A stretch of 64,000 nucleotides of DNA from assembly GCA_028283825.1 (NCBI GenBank), contig JAPWJW010000004.1, positions 376,292 through 440,291 of the forward strand, read 5' to 3'. The translations under genes were made by a program, and so were the position numbers. The stretch comes from Azospirillaceae bacterium. Its GTDB lineage: Bacteria > Pseudomonadota > Alphaproteobacteria > Azospirillales > Azospirillaceae. Below the pieces are notes generated by a model, which worked only from the letters and a program-made list of their open reading frames with translations, was not told the DNA's origin and searched no databases. This document shows positions 3,657 through 63,590 of this stretch, piece after piece (position 1 is the first letter of the stretch; each line of letters opens with the position of its first letter).

Positions 3657-4196
3657 ATGATCCGCCGCCTGGTGCTGGCCGCCAGCCTGCTGGCCATGGT
3701 GCCGTGGGTGGTGCCGGCGCGGGCCGAGGACGTGCTGTCCAACCGGCTGGAACGGCGCAAGGTGATCGAGAAGGGACGGGACAAGCGCTCGCGCCTGGAT
3801 GCCGATCCGCCGCAGGTGACCACCAAGGCCGCGCCAACCCAGATCCGCGCCTATGACAGCGACACCCTGGTCGTCGGGCCGGTGATGTACCGGCTGTGGG
3901 GCATCGCGGCCCCCGCCATGAACGAATTCGGCGGCTATAGCGCCATGCAGGGCCTGATCAAGCTGATCTACGACACCAAGATCGAGTGCGCGCCCACCGG
4001 CCAGGTCATCAACGGCGTCGCCGTGGCCCGCTGCAAGGTGGACGGCAACGACCTGTCGGCGCAGATGGTGGCCGGCGGTTATGCCCGCGACTGCCCCCGC
4101 CAGTCGGCCGGCACCTATGCCGAACTGGAACGCAGCAGCATCATCAACGTGGCCGGCGACTTCGACCTGCCGGCGGAATGCCTGGCGGACTGGTGA
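3657..4196 (+). CDS. Secreted TNase/SNase-like protein
   Basis: A 179-residue exported protein with an N-terminal signal peptide (MIRRLVLAASLLAM through PARA). The middle resembles staphylococcal-nuclease-like domains: the strand AYDSDTLVVG is followed by YRLWGIAAPAMNE, corresponding to the family pattern DGDT then RLxGIDAPE. Later, a paired-cysteine segment (CKVDGNDLSAQMVAGGYARDC) matches the family C-terminal helix region. The acidic residues around DSDT are altered compared with active nucleases, so catalysis is doubtful. The start has a good ribosome site (AGAGGTGAG). It is convergent with the Wza-like gene and sits in the polysaccharide cluster without an obvious link. Confidence 0.7.
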   Translation: MIRRLVLAASLLAMVPWVVPARAEDVLSNRLERRKVIEKGRDKRSRLDADPPQVTTKAAPTQIRAYDSDTLVVGPVMYRLWGIAAPAMNEFGGYSAMQGLIKLIYDTKIECAPTGQVINGVAVARCKVDGNDLSAQMVAGGYARDCPRQSAGTYAELERSSIINVAGDFDLPAECLADW

Positions 4197-4213
4197 GATA
4201 TCATGGCCTCATC

Positions 4214-4261
4214 CCCTCCGGCGCCGGGCGCGGCCGGATGCCAGCGCCCGGCGCCGGAGGG
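4214..4261. terminator. 18-bp perfect hairpin between convergent genes (repeat-family end, copy E)
   Basis: Perfect 18-bp inverted repeat (CCCTCCGGCGCCGGGCGC and its complement) with a 12-base loop, GGCCGGATGCCA. It separates the convergent nuclease and Wza-like genes and could stop transcription from both sides, though no long T-run follows. Its arms and loop match the terminal part of the structured repeat family; on the minus strand it starts 8 bp after the Wza-like stop. Confidence 0.6.
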
Positions 4262-4268
4262 CGCGGCA

Positions 4269-5063
4269 TTAATTAAGCGTCTGCTGCTGGCCCAGGGTGT
4301 AGTTGAAGCTACGCTGGAAGGGCACGACGCGGGTGATGAACTGGTCCACCCACTGGTCGACCTCGGCGATCGTGCTCTTGGGCACGAAGATGATGTCGAA
4401 GGGGTGCAGGCGCACGTCGTCGGCCGTGCCGGCGACAAAGCCGCTGATGTCGATGATCTTCATCATCGGGCGGCCGTTGGGGGCGCGGCGGATCAGCACC
4501 ACCTTGTGGCTCTGCGCCGTTTCCATGAAGCCGTTGGCCATGGCGATGGCCTCCAGCACGCCGATGCGGCCGGGCATGTTGAACAGGCCGGCGTTGTTGA
4601 CCTCACCCCCGATGAACACCCGTTCCGAGGCGTAGGCGCGGATGGCCACCTGGACGCGGGGATCGCGCAAATCGTGGCCGAAGCGCTGGTTCAACTCGTT
4701 GGTGATGTCGGGAACGGTCCGGCCCTCGGCATGCACCACGCCCACCAGCGGCAGGGTGAACTGCCCGTCGGGCCCCACGGTCACGCGGTCGTTGAATTCA
4801 CCGTTGAACGGCAGCTTGACCTCAACCTCATCCCCCAGGCCGATGTGGTAGTCGGTGTCCTCATCCTCCCACGGGGTGAAGGCCGCGGCCTGGCTGGCGC
4901 CGGCGCGCACCGGCCGGCCGGCGGGTGCCGCCCGCAGCGCGGACGTCTGCGCCGCCAGCGTCTTTTCGTCCGGCGGCTGGATGGAATTGGGAACACACCC
5001 GGCCAACGGCGCGATCGCGCCCACGGCCAGCAGGACCAGTCCCAGGGAGACGTGTTGTTTCAT
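4269..5063 (-). CDS. Polysaccharide export outer-membrane lipoprotein (Wza/BexD-like)
   Basis: A 264-residue lipoprotein that likely forms or feeds the outer-membrane channel for capsule or exopolysaccharide export. The start at 5063 gives a signal sequence ending in the lipobox LAGC (Cys23). A poly_export domain follows (YHIGLGDEVEVKLPF, about residue 72), then SLBB-like strands (ERVFIGGEVNNAGLFNMPG). It is divergent from the Wzz-like gene at 5300, with about 236 bp between them. Length is a little shorter than enteric Wza (about 380), as in many alphaproteobacterial versions. A longer start at 5105 adds a less signal-like N-terminus. Confidence 0.88.
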   Translation of the reverse strand: MKQHVSLGLVLLAVGAIAPLAGCVPNSIQPPDEKTLAAQTSALRAAPAGRPVRAGASQAAAFTPWEDEDTDYHIGLGDEVEVKLPFNGEFNDRVTVGPDGQFTLPLVGVVHAEGRTVPDITNELNQRFGHDLRDPRVQVAIRAYASERVFIGGEVNNAGLFNMPGRIGVLEAIAMANGFMETAQSHKVVLIRRAPNGRPMMKIIDISGFVAGTADDVRLHPFDIIFVPKSTIAEVDQWVDQFITRVVPFQRSFNYTLGQQQTLN

Positions 5064-16908: not shown

Positions 16909-17287
16909 ACTTCGTCGGGCGCGGCTGGGCCGCCCGCGTGACCCAGGCGATGCTGGCCGGCCTTGCCGACAACGACCTCACCGTCTTCGCCGCCCGCCAC
17001 CCGCTGGATGTGTTTTATCACCGGCCCCAGCGATGCCGGCATATTCCCGAGGCCTTGTCCGTCACCCAATATGAGGATGGGCACCGAAGCCTGTCACCGA
17101 TCCAGCGCGAGGCGCGCGCCCGGGTGCTGGACGACATCCCGACCCGCTACGGCACCCCACGCATCTCTGCCCCCCCGCCACGCCGCTGACGGACACCGGT
17201 CAGGGCCCGGACACCCCGCCCCTGCGCCTGACGGCCGACCTGGCCGGGCGGGCGCCCCTGGTCTCGATCATCATTCCCACGAAGGGC

Positions 17288-28541: not shown

Positions 28542-30485
28542 CTATACGCCCAGGGCCAGGATCTGCTGTGCCGCGCGTTTGCCGTGCTGGAAGGCGCCGG
28601 TGTAGTTCTGGGCGCCGTTCAGTTCGGCATGCGCGATGGCGATGCGGCCGAAACCCTTGGCCACCACCTCGCGCGGGCTGGGCCGGCCGTCCACACCGTA
28701 ATAGAAGCCCGGCGGCTGCACCACCCGGGCGTGGCCCCAGCGGTTCAGGATGATGCCGGCGATGTCGCGGCGCGGATCGAAGCCGGATCCGGTGAACATG
28801 TCCGCCATCTGGCTGCGGATGATGCGTTCGTAATCGGCGTAGCTGGTGGCCAGCAGGCGGCCCCGGCCCAGGCTGGCCTGGGTCGCGGCATCATGGCCGG
28901 GCGTGTACAGCCCCATGTAGAAGGTCAGCAGGGTGGGCCGGTCCGGATGCAACGGCGGGTCATAGTCGCCCACCACCATGGGCCGGCGGATGTTGGCGCA
29001 GAAACCGAACATGGTGCCGTCGTCGATCCAGCGCGCCGCCGTGGCGCCCAGGCGATAAAGGAAGCGCCAGTTGGTCAGGGCCACGTTGGCCACCAGGGCG
29101 GGGGCATGGATGAACTGGGCATAGGCGGCACGGATGTCGTCCGGCAGGTCCGCCACCACCCGGCGGGTGACCCAGCCGCCGCTGGCCATGATCACCGCCT
29201 TGGCCCGCACCCGCTTCAGGTCGCGGTCGCGCTCATAGGTCACCAGCACCGCCCCGCTGTTGGCATCGCGGTTCTGATGTTCCACCCGCACAGCGGTGGC
29301 GCGCAGGCGGATGCGGGTGGGCTGTCCCTGGCGATCCAACGCATCGAAACGCACCCGGCCGTTGGCGACGGCGTTGAATCCCGCCTGTCCGCCTGTGGGT
29401 CCCGCGCCCAACGCGTCCGGGATCAACGCGCGGGTCAGATAGCGGCTGAGCATGGAATTGCCGCCGGGGAAGGAGGGGGTGGGCTTGCCCCTGCCCTCCG
29501 TCACGTAATGGTGGCCGACGCGGGCGGACACGGCATCCGCCCCCACCCCGCCCAGCAGGCCCACCACCGGCTGGGCGAAGCGCGTCACCGCCGGCGCGTA
29601 GCCCTTCACCTGTTCCAGGTAGTGCTTGTAGGTCATGGTGTCGAGCAGGCGCGGGTCCTCGTCCCCCGTCTCCCCCGTCGTGGCGCGCCATTGCAGCAGC
29701 TGACGCCGGACATCGGCCCCATAGGGCGTGCGCGCCAGGGCGTCTTCCCAGATGTTGCGCACCCAGTAGGGCTGCTTGGCGCCGGTGGACGGATCGAAAT
29801 GATAGGCCACGTCCACCGTGCCTTCCGCCATGCCGTCCATGTTGTCGTAATTGTCGAGCGCGAAGCGCAACGGCGTCAGCTTGGGGTCCCAGTCCTTGAA
29901 GGTGTAGGTCCGCGGGATGTCCAGTTCCGCGAACACCTGGTCCACCTGGGTGCCGCTGCCCGGTTCCGGCGGCAGGAAATCGTTGGAAGCCTGGGGGCCG
30001 ATCAGGCGCACGCCGTTCACCAGGAATTCGTTCTGCTTGGCGGCACCGCCGAAGACGGGATGGTTTTCCAGGATCAAGCAGCGCCGCCGGCCGCCGGTAC
30101 CCTTGGCGTATTCGTAGGCCGCCATCAGGCCGCTCAAGCCGCCGCCGACGATCACCAGGTCGTAATCCTCATCCACCGGCCCGGCGGCGGGGCCATCACC
30201 CAGCGCCTGATAGGCGCCGTCGCGCACGCGGTGGGCGGCGTTCATCACCGCGGCGGTGTTGCCGTTGGACAGGGCATAGTCCCCGACGCCGCCATAGCCG
30301 GTGAAGGGATCAAGGCCGTCCGCGCCCTGCCCTGCCGCCAGGGCGTGCGCGGGACAGGCGGCAGCACCCAAGGCGGCGCCGCTGCCCAGCAGGACGCCGT
30401 TCAACATGTCGCGACGGGTGATGGGCGCGGTCAGGCCCAGGCGGTCCGTGTCAGCCAATTCGGAAGATTCCCATGTTCGTTGCAT
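28542..30485 (-). CDS. Tat-exported FAD-dependent oxidoreductase, spermidine-dehydrogenase (SpdH)-like
   Basis: A 647-residue flavoprotein. The N-terminus ITRRDMLNGVLLGSGAALG is a Tat signal as in Pseudomonas SpdH, so folding with FAD would precede export to the periplasm. The dinucleotide-binding motif is DLVIVGGGLSGLMAAYEYA (about residue 108) followed by CLILENHPVFGGAAKQNEF. The C-terminal flavin contact is GRIAIAHAELNGAQNYTGA. SpdH oxidises polyamines; whether this one does is inferred from overall similarity. Other FAD amine oxidases are possible. The nearest parS-like palindrome is 100 bp upstream of its start. Confidence 0.75.
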   Translation of the reverse strand: MQRTWESSELADTDRLGLTAPITRRDMLNGVLLGSGAALGAAACPAHALAAGQGADGLDPFTGYGGVGDYALSNGNTAAVMNAAHRVRDGAYQALGDGPAAGPVDEDYDLVIVGGGLSGLMAAYEYAKGTGGRRRCLILENHPVFGGAAKQNEFLVNGVRLIGPQASNDFLPPEPGSGTQVDQVFAELDIPRTYTFKDWDPKLTPLRFALDNYDNMDGMAEGTVDVAYHFDPSTGAKQPYWVRNIWEDALARTPYGADVRRQLLQWRATTGETGDEDPRLLDTMTYKHYLEQVKGYAPAVTRFAQPVVGLLGGVGADAVSARVGHHYVTEGRGKPTPSFPGGNSMLSRYLTRALIPDALGAGPTGGQAGFNAVANGRVRFDALDRQGQPTRIRLRATAVRVEHQNRDANSGAVLVTYERDRDLKRVRAKAVIMASGGWVTRRVVADLPDDIRAAYAQFIHAPALVANVALTNWRFLYRLGATAARWIDDGTMFGFCANIRRPMVVGDYDPPLHPDRPTLLTFYMGLYTPGHDAATQASLGRGRLLATSYADYERIIRSQMADMFTGSGFDPRRDIAGIILNRWGHARVVQPPGFYYGVDGRPSPREVVAKGFGRIAIAHAELNGAQNYTGAFQHGKRAAQQILALGV

Positions 30486-30585
30486 CCCCGCTTGTCCGCC
30501 ATAGTAGGGCCACCCGACCGGGGGCGGGAACGCACAATTGATCGATCAACCGTCCTGCCGGGACGCAGGGAAAGAGCGCCGCCAG

Positions 30586-30615
30586 GGGATAAGTTCTGAC
30601 GTCAGAACTTATCCC
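30586..30615. other. Candidate parS site 1 (30-bp perfect palindrome)
   Basis: Contains the core GTTCTGACGTCAGAAC (30593-30608) and extends as a perfect palindrome to 30 bp (GGGATAA arms outside). It lies in the gap between the SpdH-like gene and the tail-collar gene. The core recurs at 31104, 33252 and 34865, all around rep/parAB. Confidence 0.7.
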
Positions 30616-30720
30616 TCGCCCTTTGGTGCAAAATTACCGCGTCGCACAATTGACTAAATTGGGAAAAGCCGCCATCACGTCGCTGGCGCGATCGATTTCG
30701 CGTACCAACGGCCATAAGTT

Positions 30721-30975
30721 GTGATGGAGGGAATTTTGGATCCGATGATCGGTAGTGTCATCCTGTGGAGCGGCTCTTGGATTCCGGAGGGCTGGCATCT
30801 CTGCGACGGCAGCCAGTTGCAGGCCATGCAGTACCAGCCGCTTTTCTCCATAATCGGGAACAAGTATGGCGGTAACGGAACGACGACGTTCGCCTTGCCC
30901 GACTTGCGCCAGAACGCGATCGGCGCCCTGCAATGGATCATCGCCATCATGGGTGATTATCCGCCGCGTTCATAA
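30721..30975 (+). CDS. Small phage-tail-collar (microcystin-dependent-protein-like) domain protein
   Basis: An 84-residue protein that is one tail-collar domain: IGSVILWSGSWIPEGWHLCD, LFSIIGNKYGGNGTTTFALP, then DLRQN. The ending WIIAIMGDYPPRS matches the short Mdp-type proteins, so the product looks complete rather than a fragment. Such proteins occur in phage-derived or contractile particles, but no other tail gene is near. Start GTG 30721 or ATG 30724. GC is lower than in neighbours and it sits between two parS-like sites, suggesting recent insertion into the replication region. Its biological role is unknown. Confidence 0.7.
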   Translation: MMEGILDPMIGSVILWSGSWIPEGWHLCDGSQLQAMQYQPLFSIIGNKYGGNGTTTFALPDLRQNAIGALQWIIAIMGDYPPRS

Positions 30976-31102
30976 AGAGTCCGCCCGCGCGGAACAGCAT
31001 GGCCGGAGGGCGAAAGCTAATAAGGGGATAGCTTTCGCCCTTCGATTCGGGGATTGGATTTTCCGGGGGAAATGCCCGGCGGATACACCCCGCACGCATG
31101 CT

Positions 31103-31120
31103 GGTTCTGACGTCAGAACC
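31103..31120. other. Candidate parS site 2
   Basis: Perfect 18-bp palindrome GGTTCTGACGTCAGAACC, 19 bp downstream of the rep stop codon (minus strand). Confidence 0.7.
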
Positions 31121-31138
31121 GGCCCGGAAAACCGGGTC

Positions 31139-32476
31139 TCAGCGCAGCGTCGCCGCCGCCTCGTCCGCCACCCACTCCACCCATTTGTGGATGTTGCTGG
31201 CGGCGACGGCGGCCCGCACCTCGGGCGCGCCCAGGTCACGGGCCCGCTTGTAGAAACGGGTGCGCACGTCCAGCGGCTCCGATGCCAGGCGATCAATCAC
31301 CGCCTGGCGCGGGGCTCGCACTTCCGTCCCCGTGATCGCGGGTGGCACCACAGGGATCATGGACACCACCTCCCCCGCCATCTTGCGCACGAAGCCGGCA
31401 AAGGCCAGGTCGGCATTGCGGATCTTGCCCGTCTGGCCGGATGCCCATTCCGCCCAGCGGTCCAGGGCACCCTCGATGTCAATGCCGGGATAGTCGGTTC
31501 GCAGCTGCTCCACGGCCGTGTCGCTGATCCGCCGCTTCAGGCCCAGCACCGACACCGGCCGGTCGCGGTCGGTCTTGCCGTCTTCCAGATCCACGGTGTC
31601 GGCGTCACGGGCGCCGGCGGCCAGGCCCCGGCCCACGGGGCCCACCGGATCAATGGCGAATTCCGTGGCGCGCGCGGCGGAGGTCAGGGCCGCCCTTTCC
31701 TTCTTGCGGATGGTGAAACGCAACGCGATCACCGGCCGACCACGTGAGGGCGAGCGGATGGGGGTATAGCTGCACTCAATGGCCGACAGCTCATTCACCT
31801 CACGCACCGCGCGTTCCAGCACCTCGCGCTGCAGGATGCCGAAGTTCTTGTTGGCAGAACTGTTCTTGACGCTCAGCAGCTGGCGGAAGGCGTCGATCTC
31901 CACCTCCCAATCCGGCTCGCGCAGGTTCACCCGCACGCTCAGCAACTCATACAGCGCCAGGGCGTACTTGGAACTGAAGCTGGTGCACACCGCCAGGTGG
32001 ATGCGTGCCCAGGCCGACGGTTCCGCCAGGGCCGGGCGCAGTTCCGCCGGGAAGGACCATTCCGCATAGCCTTTACCCTTAGGCAGGGCGCGGAAGCTCA
32101 ACAGCGGAGCGCCACCTTCCTTCACCTCGCCATCGGCGCTGAGGTAGGGGAATTCCACCCGCACCGACATCAGGCGGTCAAAGCAGCTTTTCAGGCGGGC
32201 GTTGCTGTGCTCCGTCTCCTCACCGATGGCGCGCTTCAGGTCGGCCGTGGCGGCGCGGAAGGGCGGCAGTGCGGCGGTGGCGTCGGCCAGCTTGTCCCAG
32301 CTGTGGGCCAGGATGACGTTGAACAGCTTCTTGTCCGACAGCGTCAGCCCACCGCCGGTCTCAATGATCTCGATGGTGCCGCGCGGCTTGGGCACGGTCG
32401 GATCCGTGTCCAGGCGAAAGGGGTCCCCTGTCGCCTCCGGGCGCCTGGCCGGCGGTTTGGCTGCTGTCCTAGTCAT
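31139..32476 (-). CDS. Rep_3-family replication initiator (RepB/RepA-like)
   Basis: A 445-residue plasmid-type initiator. The N-terminal half has two winged-helix units: LTLSDKKLFNVILAHSWDKL leading to LKSCFDRLMSVRVEFPY, then SFSSKYALALYELLSVRVN with IDAFRQLLSVK, the diagnostic helix set of Rep_3 proteins that bind iterons and melt the origin. A second domain follows (IECSYTPIRSPSRGRPVIALRF), and residues 330-445 are a helical tail of unknown use. ATG at 32476 lacks a clear ribosome site. It is transcribed away from the iteron array at 32528-33070, divergent from parAB, the classic layout of a self-regulating iteron origin. Confidence 0.87.
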   Translation of the reverse strand: MTRTAAKPPARRPEATGDPFRLDTDPTVPKPRGTIEIIETGGGLTLSDKKLFNVILAHSWDKLADATAALPPFRAATADLKRAIGEETEHSNARLKSCFDRLMSVRVEFPYLSADGEVKEGGAPLLSFRALPKGKGYAEWSFPAELRPALAEPSAWARIHLAVCTSFSSKYALALYELLSVRVNLREPDWEVEIDAFRQLLSVKNSSANKNFGILQREVLERAVREVNELSAIECSYTPIRSPSRGRPVIALRFTIRKKERAALTSAARATEFAIDPVGPVGRGLAAGARDADTVDLEDGKTDRDRPVSVLGLKRRISDTAVEQLRTDYPGIDIEGALDRWAEWASGQTGKIRNADLAFAGFVRKMAGEVVSMIPVVPPAITGTEVRAPRQAVIDRLASEPLDVRTRFYKRARDLGAPEVRAAVAASNIHKWVEWVADEAAATLR

Positions 32477-32527
32477 GTTATGCAGTGGGCCAGCGGCACC
32501 ACACAGAGTCAACACAGGCACCGGCCG

Positions 32528-33070
32528 CTGGCGACAGAACACACAGTAAGGCATCCCCGCCACGCCCAACTGGCGACAAAGTACATAAAGACCGCGACGG
32601 CGCCCCGATCAACTGGCGAGAAAACGCACACGGTGGCCGACTGCAACCTGGAAAAACCCTCCCCCAGCCTCCGACTCCGCCCCGACTCTCAATTGGCGAG
32701 AAAACACATAGAAAGCCCGGATATTGCCTGATGAGAAAACACATAGAGAAAGGTGGAAGCGGGTGTCAGCCACCCAAGCAAGTATCTGATATCAATAGGA
32801 TTTATTCAGTGCCGCGACGCCGCCTTCCTGCTGACGACAAAACACACGCAAACGACTCGGGGAACGGTGGCGAGAAAACGCATAAAAAGCCCGCGCCGGT
32901 TCCCACCCCGCCCCTTGGGCCCTCACGCGCGCGACGCCAAGACCGCCCAGACACCCATGGCGAGAAAACGCACAAGGAAACCAGGGACGGCGACAACCCG
33001 CACAGAGACGGCGGACAAAACGCATCCAGAGGGGCGACAAAGCGCACGCAGACTCGGGACAAAGCGCATG
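32528..33070 (+). repeat. Array of about 12 direct iterons (17-18 bp)
   Basis: Consensus about CTGGCGAGAAAACGCACA, all in one orientation. Copies begin at 32528, 32570, 32613, 32693, 32728, 32831, 32867, 32957, 32987 (degenerate), 33008, 33031 and 33053. Base changes cluster at G/C after GCGA, at A/G before CNCA, and at the last two bases. Spacing is irregular (21 to 103 bp). These are expected binding sites of the adjacent Rep_3 initiator, serving replication and copy control. Confidence 0.88.
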
Positions 33071-33201
33071 CGGACACCGTACAACCTATTGATCTGACTT
33101 AGATATTCCTCACCTGAACAAGAACAAGGGAATCTAGGAAAGAGTCAGGACCGGTCCCTTCCATTGGAAAACAGCATAGGGTCGGGATGGCCGGGGTATC
33201 A

Positions 33202-33254
33202 ACCATCAACCATCAACGTTGCCGTTGACACTTGATGGTGCCGCTGGCTAGGTT
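33202..33254 (+). promoter_or_regulatory. parAB promoter with operator-like repeats
   Basis: A perfect TTGACA -35 box (33225-33230) is followed 18 bases later by TAGGTT (33249-33254) as a weak -10. The direct repeat CAACCAT CAACCAT and the inverted pair ACCATCAA (33209-33216) / TTGATGGT (33232-33239) flank the -35. The N-terminal helix-turn-helix of ParA suggests it binds here to repress its own operon. The candidate parS 3 overlaps the -10/start site. Confidence 0.55.
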
Positions 33255-33267
33255 CTGACGTCAGAAC
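33252..33267. other. Candidate parS site 3 (in parAB promoter)
   Basis: Exact 16-bp core GTTCTGACGTCAGAAC, overlapping the probable -10 box and transcription start of parAB and 23 bp upstream of the parA ATG. ParB bound here could repress its own operon. Confidence 0.72.
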
Positions 33268-33290
33268 TTCGGGCCTTGGGGGATGGGATC

Positions 33291-34319
33291 ATGAACGGCG
33301 ATCGGATGCGTGAATTGCGCCAGGCCCTGCGCTTGAGCCAGGGTGGCTTGGCGGACCTGCTGAACGCCCGCCTGTCGCGGTCTTATGACAAACCCAAGAT
33401 CAGCCGCTGGGAAAACGGCAAGGAGCCCATCCCCGATGACGTGGCGGCGGAGTTCCAGCAGTTCGCGTCCGGCAAGCCGCGCAACGCCCGGGTGTTCGTG
33501 CTGGCCAACCAGAAGGGCGGCGTGGGCAAGACCACCAGCGCCCTGAACCTGGCCTATGCCCTGGGCCAGTCCGGCCGGCGGGTGCTGCTGGTCGATATGG
33601 ATCCGCAGGCCACGGCCACGGTGGCCCTGCTGGCCGACGCGGCGGTGGAGGTCTACCGCCAGGGCCGCACCATGGCCCATGTCATCCTACAGAACCGCCC
33701 GCTGGCCGATGCCATCCTGAAGCCGGGCGTGGTGGAGACGGCGGTACCCCTGCCCTTCGATCTGGCGGCCAGTCATATCGAACTGTCGGAAACCGACGGC
33801 CGGCGTGAGCCGGGTTTCGATGCCGCCCTGCGTGAGGCGGTGGACACGGTGCGCGCCGGTTATGATTTCATCGTCATCGACGCGCCGCCCAACCTGGGCA
33901 TGCTGACCTGGATGGCCCTGGCGGCGGCGCAGGAGGTGCTGATCCCCGTGCGCACCGAACCCTACGACACCATGGGCGTCGGCCTGATCCTGAACACCAT
34001 CCACAAGGTGCAGCGCCGCCTGAACCCGGGCCTGCGCCTGGCCGGCATCCTGCCGACCCAGTTCGGACGCCGCAAGTCGGTGGACCGCGAGGTGCTGGCC
34101 CACCTGGTGACGGCCTTGGGTGAAAAGGTGCCGGTGCTGGAGGCGGTACCCGACAGCGCCGTGTTCGGCCACGCCGCCCGCAACGGCCGCATCGCGCTGG
34201 AGGCATCGCCGACCTCCACCGCCGCCGCGGTTTATCGTAAGCTGGCGGACTGCATCATCAACGACCGGCCGTTGGCCCGGGCCGTGATCGAATTGACCCC
34301 CATCGAGAATGAGGCCTGA
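33291..34319 (+). CDS. parA: ParA-type partition ATPase with N-terminal HTH
   Basis: A 342-residue partition protein. Residues 1-55 are a Cro/XRE-type helix-turn-helix (MRELRQALRLSQGGLADLL, KISRWENGK). The ATPase follows: deviant Walker A NQKGGVGKTTS (about residue 72), Walker A' VLLVDMDPQATAT and Walker B FIVIDAPPNLGMLTW (about 193). A fused DNA-binding domain is the type Ia layout, in which ParA also represses the operon. ATG at 33291 follows GGGGGATGG. parB starts 5 bases after the stop. It segregates the replicon by moving ParB-parS complexes over the nucleoid. Confidence 0.93.
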   Translation: MNGDRMRELRQALRLSQGGLADLLNARLSRSYDKPKISRWENGKEPIPDDVAAEFQQFASGKPRNARVFVLANQKGGVGKTTSALNLAYALGQSGRRVLLVDMDPQATATVALLADAAVEVYRQGRTMAHVILQNRPLADAILKPGVVETAVPLPFDLAASHIELSETDGRREPGFDAALREAVDTVRAGYDFIVIDAPPNLGMLTWMALAAAQEVLIPVRTEPYDTMGVGLILNTIHKVQRRLNPGLRLAGILPTQFGRRKSVDREVLAHLVTALGEKVPVLEAVPDSAVFGHAARNGRIALEASPTSTAAAVYRKLADCIINDRPLARAVIELTPIENEA

Positions 34320-34324
34320 CCGCC

Positions 34325-35194
34325 ATGACCGCGAAGAAGCGCCCCTCGCCCATCTTGGGTGCGGCCTCCGCCCTGATCGATGAGGCGTCGGAAAGCCTAC
34401 TGACGCGCAACAGCCGCTTTCATCACACCATAGAACTGCGCATCGACCACATCACCGCCGACCCGGACCAGCCACGCAAGACCTTCTCGGAAGAGGAATT
34501 GGCCGGCCTGGCCGCCAGCATGTCGGAACAGGGCCAGCTTCAGCCCATCCTGGTGCGGCGTGATCCCATTGATCGCGGCCAATGGATGGTGGTGGCGGGT
34601 GAGCGCCGCTGGCGCGCCGCCCAGCGCCTGGGCTGGGGCTTCATCCTGGCCATCGAGCACAGCGGCGACCCGGAAATCCTGGCGCTGATCGAAAACCTGC
34701 AGCGCGTCGACCTGACGCCGGTGGAAGAGGCGCGCGGCCTGAAGCGCCTGATCGAGGGCAAGGGCTGGACCCAGAACCAGGCGGCCGAGGCCCTGGGCAA
34801 GACCAAGGGCGAGATCAGCGCCACCCTGCGCATCCTGTCGCTGCCCAACGACCTGCTGGAAGGGGTTCTGACGTCAGAACTGGGCCTGGCGCGCAACGCG
34901 CTGGTGGAACTGTCGCGGGTGGATGAACCGGCGGTGCGCGACCGCCTGATCCAGTCGGCGCGGTCCGGCACGCTCAGCGTCCGCTCCATCCGTGCTGCCA
35001 AGGCGCAGGAGGCCGCACCGGCGGTGGAAGAGGGGCGGCCGTCCAGCGGCATCAGCCAGCCGGGGGTCAACCTGGCCTCGGTGGAACGGCTGTTGAGCAA
35101 TCTGCGGGGTGTGCGTCCGGCGGCCTTGCGTGATGCCGACCGCGACCGCCTGCGGGCCCTGCGGTCGGCGATCGACGATCTGCTGTCGCGCTAA
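34325..35194 (+). CDS. parB: ParB-type centromere-binding CTPase
   Basis: A 289-residue ParB/Spo0J-family protein. The N-terminal CTP-binding domain has ELRIDHITADPDQPRKTF, LVRRD and the GERRWRAA box (about residue 93). ENLQRVDLTPVEEARGLKRL follows, then the DNA-binding helix-turn-helix (TQNQAAEALGKTKGEISATL). The C-terminal 55 residues should dimerise. Its own coding sequence contains a perfect parS-like palindrome at 34865-34880. It is translated right after parA. ParB would load on the sites at 30593, 31103, 33252 and 34865. Confidence 0.93.
   Translation: MTAKKRPSPILGAASALIDEASESLLTRNSRFHHTIELRIDHITADPDQPRKTFSEEELAGLAASMSEQGQLQPILVRRDPIDRGQWMVVAGERRWRAAQRLGWGFILAIEHSGDPEILALIENLQRVDLTPVEEARGLKRLIEGKGWTQNQAAEALGKTKGEISATLRILSLPNDLLEGVLTSELGLARNALVELSRVDEPAVRDRLIQSARSGTLSVRSIRAAKAQEAAPAVEEGRPSSGISQPGVNLASVERLLSNLRGVRPAALRDADRDRLRALRSAIDDLLSR
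34865..34880. other. Candidate parS site 4 (inside parB)
   Basis: Exact core GTTCTGACGTCAGAAC within the parB coding sequence, where it encodes the residues VLTSEL just after the helix-turn-helix. parS sites inside or near par genes are known in several bacteria. Confidence 0.72.
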
Positions 35195-63454: not shown

Positions 63455-63479
63455 AACGATCCGATTGCGGCGGATCGTT
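63455..63479 (-). promoter_or_regulatory. mntP: Hairpin in the mntP leader (possible expression platform)
   Basis: Perfect 9-bp stem AACGATCCG / CGGATCGTT between the riboswitch aptamer and the mntP start. No T-run follows, so it would act by translation control or as part of an anti-structure rather than as a plain terminator. Confidence 0.5.
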
Positions 63480-63496
63480 CGCTCGCGCCATGGGTG

Positions 63497-63590
63497 CCCG
63501 GTTAAAGCCGGATCACACCAGGTCTGTTGACGCGGCGCCCGCTGAAGATCGCGGGCGGCTACTCCCCAATGATGGGGGGTGCTTAACGGG
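63497..63590 (-). ncRNA. yybP-ykoY manganese riboswitch upstream of mntP
   Basis: On the minus strand the two conserved loops are present: GGGGAGTAG (63559-63567) and CGTCAACAGACC (63521-63532), which form the Mn2+ pocket. A basal stem is suggested by CCCGTTAAGC (63581-63590) and GCTTTAACCGGG (63497-63508); a GCCCGC/GCGGGC stem lies between the loops. This element activates mntP when Mn2+ is high. It begins about 70 bp after the TetR stop and ends about 140 bp before mntP. Confidence 0.85.

Follow-up and report, generated by a model that had tools for sequence, protein, structure and literature searches.

A 64,000-nucleotide stretch of Nitrospirillum DNA (G000:C4:376292-440291; hereafter, the window) holds, side by side, a gene for a Rep_3-type replication initiator, a noncoding stretch with an array of short direct repeats (iterons) and, reading away in the other direction, the partition genes parA and parB. 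The window belongs to C4, a 620,149-bp contig (a 620-kb secondary replicon) that is one of five in a 7.16-Mb genome, the others being C1 (2.21 Mb), C2 (0.75 Mb), C3 (2.66 Mb) and C5 (0.92 Mb), and the array lies on it at about 409 kb. Far from these genes, at 63455-63579 on the minus strand, the window also has a manganese riboswitch (yybP-ykoY, 47.3 bits). Where does such a replicon start its own replication, and what might tell it when to start? We argue, on the strength of what can be read in the sequence, that the array most likely serves C4 as its Rep-dependent replication origin.

What sort of replicon is C4? Twenty sampled stretches of it held no tRNA gene and so gave, there, no support for a chromosome-like gene load. 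A search of the whole genome at E 0.001 found no RepC (PF03428), and we do not count C4 among the RepABC replicons. The initiator is of another kind. An earlier reading of the window, made from its sequence only, had placed a divergent Rep_3 gene beside the repeats, and the minus-strand gene found there does match Rep3_N at 2.9e-14 and Rep3_C at 9.9e-10; its profile also matches a chain of the pi protein (2nra_C, E 3.8e-4). In our congener comparisons, which take in the window genome and six Nitrospirillum relatives (seven genomes), the start ATG of rep is kept and the protein is 89-91% identical in all six relatives. Relatives at 88-91% identity occur in Nitrospirillum records, including chromosome 4 of Nitrospirillum viridazoti CBAmc, and in “Azospirillum sp. 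B4,” and a scan of viral contigs with the Rep alignment found no relative at all. The C-terminal part of Rep (31142-31549, about residues 310-445) gave no significant Pfam match, and it is less conserved in the next genus than the winged helices are. An AlphaFold2 model of Rep from seven close sequences reached a mean pLDDT (predicted local distance difference test score) of 41, and no conclusion here is based on it. On the far side of the array, a Walker ParA stands with a helix-turn-helix (HTH) ParB, which is the pairing of a type I ParABS system.

The iteron array and its spacing

The first reading had seen about 12 same-orientation copies over 540 bp. With a position weight matrix (PWM) trained solely on 71 sites of the six congeners, the window genome being left out, we find exactly 12, all on the plus strand, between 32529 and 33071. 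The iteron is an 18-bp motif with the consensus TGGCGAGAAAACACATAG, and its 12 copies score 14.6-31.2 bits; a first-order Markov null gave a mean of 0.03 matches above 14 bits and a maximum of 1 in 100 sequences. Elsewhere in the 64 kb, five positions exceed 9 bits, two of them 12 bits. Across the genome, the consensus with up to one mismatch is found in four places, every one in the array; with two mismatches, it is found in one, on C3; with three, it is found in 25, two of which are in the array (a control with the reversed pattern gave eight). A lone iteron-like match at 17006 on the minus strand (15.1 bits) outscores the two weakest array copies.

The distances from one iteron start to the next run 42, 43, 80, 35, 103, 36, 90, 30, 22, 22 and 22 bp. 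As numbers, then, they are as irregular as had been claimed, over a range of 22-103 bp (the lower bound had been put at 21). As a sign of disorder, however, the irregularity does not hold up—across the seven genomes, the spacing is about 43, 42, 81, 35, 103, 35, 70, 30, 22, 22 and 22 bp and is held within 1-2 bp, with one gap departing from it (90 bp in the window vs. 70 bp in the congeners, a difference of about 20 bp). The congeners carry 12, 12, 12, 12, 11 and 12 copies, again all on the plus strand, and pairwise identity among the seven genomes is 0.849 in the iteron columns and 0.494 in the spacers once the GANTC sites discussed below are removed. Because number, orientation and spacing recur in all six congeners while the spacers have diverged, we take the irregularity of the array to be a fixed architecture. 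Strict helical phasing was tried as a firm claim and rejected: in the three genomes to which the test was applied, a fixed period of 10.5 bp gives modest phase coherence (R 0.60-0.74; p = 0.03, 0.005 and 0.026), and the significance is lost when the period is left free.

The AT-rich patch that had been said to split the array is also real (73% AT) and separates copies 5 and 6 (Table 1). The locus has what one looks for in an iteron-type origin, namely several directly repeated iterons of some 17-22 bp adjoining rep and an AT-rich region next to them, the latter being a candidate for the place of unwinding.

Table 1. Features of the rep-parAB region, in window coordinates
Feature	Position	Strand	Remarks
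Rep_3 initiator, 445 aa	31139..32476	-	Pfam Rep3_N and Rep3_C, both above curated cut-offs; C-terminal extension past two winged-helix domains
Putative rep promoter element	32489..32513	-	inverted pair I1, 84%; conserved in alignment A1; promoter role inferred
Iteron copies 1-5	32529..32746; starts 32529, 32571, 32614, 32694, 32729	+	18 bp each; PWM 21.8-31.2 bits; alignment A1
AT-rich patch, candidate unwinding element	32781..32810		in the 103-bp gap that separates iterons 5 and 6; AT content in the top 0.04% of 30-mers of the window
Iteron copies 6-12	32832..33071; starts 32832, 32868, 32958, 32988, 33010, 33032, 33054	+	PWM 14.6-30.1 bits; last four spaced 22 bp
Seven GANTC sites	32506..33146; 32506, 32673, 32684, 32854, 33051, 33130, 33142		all except 32684 invariant in 7 genomes
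parAB-side copy of shared promoter-like element	33224..33248	+	pair I1; ATCAAC repeats precede; promoter role inferred
parS-like palindrome, copy 1	30592..30609		genome matches only on C4
parS-like palindrome, copy 2	31103..31120		just downstream of rep
parS-like palindrome, copy 3	33251..33268		in front of parA; 16-bp core perfect in 6/7 genomes, one substitution in BR12005
parS-like palindrome, copy 4	34864..34881		inside parB; perfect counterpart at matching distance in 6/6 loci L035-L040
ParA ATPase with N-terminal HTH	33291..34319	+	AAA_31 4.9e-45, HTH_31 1.9e-7
ParB	34325..35194	+	ParB_N 8e-22, HTH_ParB 1.3e-14

GANTC sites within and around the array

The window has 52 GANTC (CcrM) sites, of which seven fall in the 700 bp from 32477. 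None of 4,940 segments of 700 bp on C4 outside the array holds more than five (these segments overlap one another, and two of the sampled stretches they come from partly overlap the window), and the C4 segments below 58% GC (n = 128) have a mean of 1.75 and a maximum of 4. A Markov null of local composition gives p = 0.018 only, and for that reason, we consider conservation a stronger argument than density: six of the sites are invariant in the seven genomes, and any other palindromic pattern of the same shape has at most two invariant sites. Both of the proteins that one would need are encoded on C3. CcrM scores 616 bits to NF050803, under the model cut-off of 830, and has a RAMA domain; for GcrA, the control search with its family also gave a match in Sulfolobus acidocaldarius. 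GANTC conserved beyond its surroundings, in a host that encodes CcrM, is what a CcrM-regulated locus should look like, and such regulation may operate here.

But regulation of what? This could be an ordinary Rep_3 iteron origin, at which GANTC acts on transcription alone, GcrA and CcrM working at the promoters of rep and par, or simply reflects the excess of such sites in intergenic DNA generally, and plays no part in firing. We regard this as a serious contender with a substantial chance of being right, and several points speak for it or weigh against a firing role. According to passages of PMC3973325, GANTC is over-represented more than 1.5-fold in alphaproteobacterial intergenic DNA generally. 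The null of local composition is passed by the modest margin just given. Of the seven sites, a single one reaches into an iteron (by 2 bp), which is not the arrangement at Vibrio ori2. Site 32506 sits in the putative rep promoter element, which reads TTGACTC, its −35-like box including the GANTC, and 33130 and 33142 lie between the array and parA. Against this reading, the AT-richer segments of C4 carry the low counts noted above, and the invariant sites 32673, 32854 and 33051 fall within the array and at a distance from either promoter element. Moreover, upstream of Rep_3-type genes, 10 alphaproteobacterial loci have 51 GANTC sites vs. 29.1 expected, and seven nonalphaproteobacterial controls have 21 vs. 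21.0, the 17 loci having been picked by hand from the listed relatives and not sampled randomly. Locus by locus, the picture is mixed in both groups (Skermanella, 3 vs. 4.2 expected; Azospirillum oryzae, 3 vs. 3.2; the nonalphaproteobacterial Variovorax, 7 vs. 3.9), and part of the excess at alphaproteobacterial Rep_3 loci is background, because the intergenic over-representation described in those passages (PMC3973325) is general.

The upstream regions of rep and parAB have a 25-bp element in common, 84% identical and conserved in the congeners, and ATCAAC repeats accompany it on the parAB side, the two together taking up 33200-33248. Element and repeats together are perhaps a common operator.

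Palindromes, partition and the probable origin of C4

A palindrome of 16 bp, GTTCTGACGTCAGAAC, with its outer variants, occurs four times within 4.3 kb (0 in 100 shuffles). Genome-wide, at up to two mismatches, it is found in six places, all six on C4 and five of them perfect; at up to one mismatch, it is present in all seven Nitrospirillum genomes and in none of 23 other genomes. In a four-contig relative (G006), all five palindromes share their contig with rep, and in draft genomes, several, some perfect, are on other contigs not assigned to a replicon. In three of the six congeners, the copy just downstream of rep has a perfect counterpart no more than about 60 bp from where rep ends, and in two more, it has a counterpart with one mismatch. 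Clustered near parAB and specific to their replicon, as the sites of a ParABS system should be, the palindromes are probably parS. Passages of PMC9040568 give the repABC parS consensus as GTTNNNNGCNNNNAAC, and the palindrome here is likewise 16 bp long with GTT...AAC ends, although it is without the GC center.

One further palindrome lies at C4:527933 (L042:2934-2949), 118 kb from the array, just past a gene end and followed by a short T run. Among the matches listed, it is kept in place between conserved flanks in two relatives (L077 and L079), in which the DNA directly beside it, the neighboring gene included, does not align. We also considered the palindromes as terminators and rejected the idea: a scan of 30400-33500, which takes in copies 1-3 and not the one in parB, placed its terminator-like sites elsewhere.

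Might the palindrome instead be the operator of the HTH-bearing ParA or of some unlinked regulator? One copy does stand in front of parA, and ParA does have an N-terminal HTH, but other copies are inside parB, downstream of rep and, as just noted, far away at a gene end, and both the length and the GTT...AAC ends are those of the repABC parS consensus in the passages cited (PMC9040568). We think an operator unlikely and return to the palindromes as predicted parS.

How would these parts work together? In the account that we favor, C4 starts its replication within 32477-33290. The Rep_3 protein, whose gene is transcribed divergently, would bind the 12 directly repeated iterons, melt the AT-rich patch between the two subarrays and load the replisome; ParA and ParB would act on the 16-bp palindromes and segregate the copies. 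The conserved GANTC sites, those within the array as well as those flanking it, would put transcription of rep, the assembly of Rep on the origin or both under the control of methylation state through CcrM and GcrA. An origin that has just been replicated, and is hemimethylated, would then have to wait for remethylation late in the cycle before it could fire again. Taken whole, as an origin with parS-based segregation and CcrM/GcrA control, the account seems to us quite probable. Its parts are not equally firm: binding of Rep to the iterons with melting is likely, as is binding of ParB to the palindromes, but methylation-dependent timing of replication stands at about even odds.

Some observations weigh against the origin reading. 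The regional AT maximum falls at the patch in only four of the seven genomes. DnaA boxes (TTWTNCACA, up to one mismatch) are absent from the window region; four of the seven genomes have a single match each, and no match is common to the seven. DnaA boxes are typical of Rep_3 iteron-type origins, although not universal in them. At the rep operator, such systems commonly, although not by definition, have a partial iteron in inverted orientation; a search for an inverted 9-base partial core at up to one mismatch found none in the seven regions (weaker forms were not searched). Neither shared element showed a canonical sigma-70 promoter. Nor does GC skew, which had been suggested as a check, single out the array. 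In sampled 10-kb stretches of C4, the mean skew is indeed lower to the left of the array (−0.013, n = 9) than to the right (+0.016, n = 11; one-sided p = 0.017), and the array, at 409 kb, is inside the trough of the cumulative skew over the 20 stretches. That trough, however, is broad, with its minimum (−0.115) at 434-444 kb and values almost as low at 372, 403 and 496 kb, and the strongest contrast between half-replicons is at 510-530 kb (0.046 vs. 0.028 at 410 kb). The skew, then, is compatible with an origin at the array and is not decisive; it is the anatomy, the conservation and the place beside rep-parAB that carry the claim first made for this array.

Iterons in known plasmids also titrate Rep and handcuff origins, and one might therefore imagine that the array is a locus for incompatibility or copy control and a rep operator, with replication starting elsewhere, whether inside rep or at some other place on C4. 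The missing DnaA box and the best skew contrast at 510-530 kb would suit such a locus. We find it improbable: the AT-rich patch lies within the array, the iterons are in direct orientation, rep-parAB is next to them and the cumulative skew trough includes them. Since some plasmid centromeres are direct repeats and these repeats are upstream of parA, they could also be the ParAB centromere (an iteron-like parS) and not Rep sites, but this is very improbable, given a ParB with ParB_N and HTH_ParB, which we take to be domains of palindrome-binding ParBs, and given the separate C4-specific palindrome around rep and par and at the distant site.

Other replicons and known systems

Is C4 alone in this? 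On C1, a divergent rep/parAB module (L044, G000:C1:526000-533000, positions 3673-4766) has repeats in both orientations, and its rep-parA stretch packs 16 GANTC sites into 1,094 bp, a count reached by none of 2,000 Markov sequences. Over the first 1,100 bp, the seven genomes have 14-17 GANTC sites each, 10 of them invariant vs. 5 for the next pattern. On C2 (L025, about 205.7-209.0 kb), a second Rep_3-like gene, of 448 aa, has inverted 17- to 19-bp repeats upstream and an HTH-ParA downstream, and this module is probably the origin of the 0.75-Mb contig. The assignment to Rep_3 is by Rep3_N for C1 and C4; for C2, it is by likeness in the second winged helix and by RepM/RepE models below their cut-offs. 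GANTC also clusters at the C2 module, with seven sites upstream of the gene (p = 0.06) and three in the rep-parA interval (p = 0.125), p values under a Markov null of local composition that weigh against the account we favor. An initiator related to the C1 type (56%) is encoded at G007:C1:3949972-3950799; that genome, of 4.4 Mb, is presented as one contig, perhaps a merged replicon.

In the next genus, the Niveispirillum orthologue (H21, NZ_CP025613, 1.0 Mb) has a Rep that is 52-53% identical over nearly its full length. Both Niveispirillum-type orthologues (L016 and L017, the latter at the same coordinates as H21) have, like the window, same-orientation repeats, uneven spacing and clustered GANTC; the iteron sequence differs save for its CACAG end, and the spacing differs too. 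Six GANTC sites align between the two loci; two of these lie a short way past the array, which is also the case in the window. Farther out, relatives of Rep are on 635 plasmid records of many hosts, and those among the matches listed include alphaproteobacterial replicons of 529-829 kb and the 1.0-Mb Niveispirillum replicon. The sequence-only reading had called an origin like this uncommon for a large alphaproteobacterial replicon, RepABC being dominant there. Uncommon it is, with Rep3_N in 4 and RepC in 8 of a class sample of 95 genomes (the source genome included); unusual it is not, as the relatives on many large alphaproteobacterial plasmids attest.

Rep_3/iteron origins are in fact already known, large alphaproteobacterial plasmids included. 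In the Rep_3/RepB-type modules of Paracoccus, Thioclava, Rhodovulum and Gemmobacter, the initiator likewise diverges from parAB across a noncoding stretch, with a Rep only about 26-29% identical to the one here. Passages of PMC3832669 describe plasmids of the RepB type whose iterons lie upstream of rep; the small plasmids there have two to five repeats, closely spaced where spacing is stated, whereas 12 are spread here over 543 bp at distances of up to 103 bp; the term GANTC occurs nowhere in the main text of that paper. In one open-access library, we found no paper that reports GANTC together with iterons at the origin of an alphaproteobacterial replicon. What seems new here is the combination, within a known kind of origin, of conserved CcrM sites and a fixed irregular array. 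Such fixed sites are a specific candidate for what keeps these replicons in step with the cell cycle, and the exact iteron spacing, together with a replicon-specific palindrome, offers targets for a stable vector in Nitrospirillum.

Among the close counterparts within the class are RepABC replicons that have loci rich in GANTC (Agrobacterium ori2, pTi and pAMI4), which, in passages of PMC6090056, PMC11514494 and PMC9040568, are also secondary replicons with partition genes at the origin and an excess of GANTC. The first of these passages describes repABC origins as GANTC-rich, and the second describes an effect of CcrM on ori2 in Agrobacterium. C4 differs in that no RepC was found, the initiator and array are of the Rep_3/iteron type and rep diverges from parAB. 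The same 2018 review (PMC6090056, in the passages cited) assigns repABC chromids exclusively to alphaproteobacteria and iteron chromids to beta- and gammaproteobacteria, a split that the source genome does not fit, because it yielded no RepC and has Rep_3-type modules on contigs of 2.21, 0.75 and 0.62 Mb.

Another counterpart is outside the class. Vibrio cholerae ori2, with its initiator RctB, is also an iteron-type origin of a secondary chromosome with linked adenine-methylation sites, and binding of RctB there is promoted by Dam methylation (passages of PMC2865523). At Vibrio ori2, a methylase site is within each iteron; here, GANTC is mostly between the iterons, and there is no shared DnaA box. 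Might the two have come to the same end independently? We propose, tentatively and with something close to but short of an even chance of being right, that at alphaproteobacterial Rep_3 iteron chromids, conserved GANTC among the iterons gates the action of Rep or the expression of rep and so would limit firing to once per cycle, in at least three replicons here (C1, C2 and C4) and more weakly in other alphaproteobacterial Rep_3 replicons, as an independent counterpart of Dam and RctB at Vibrio ori2.
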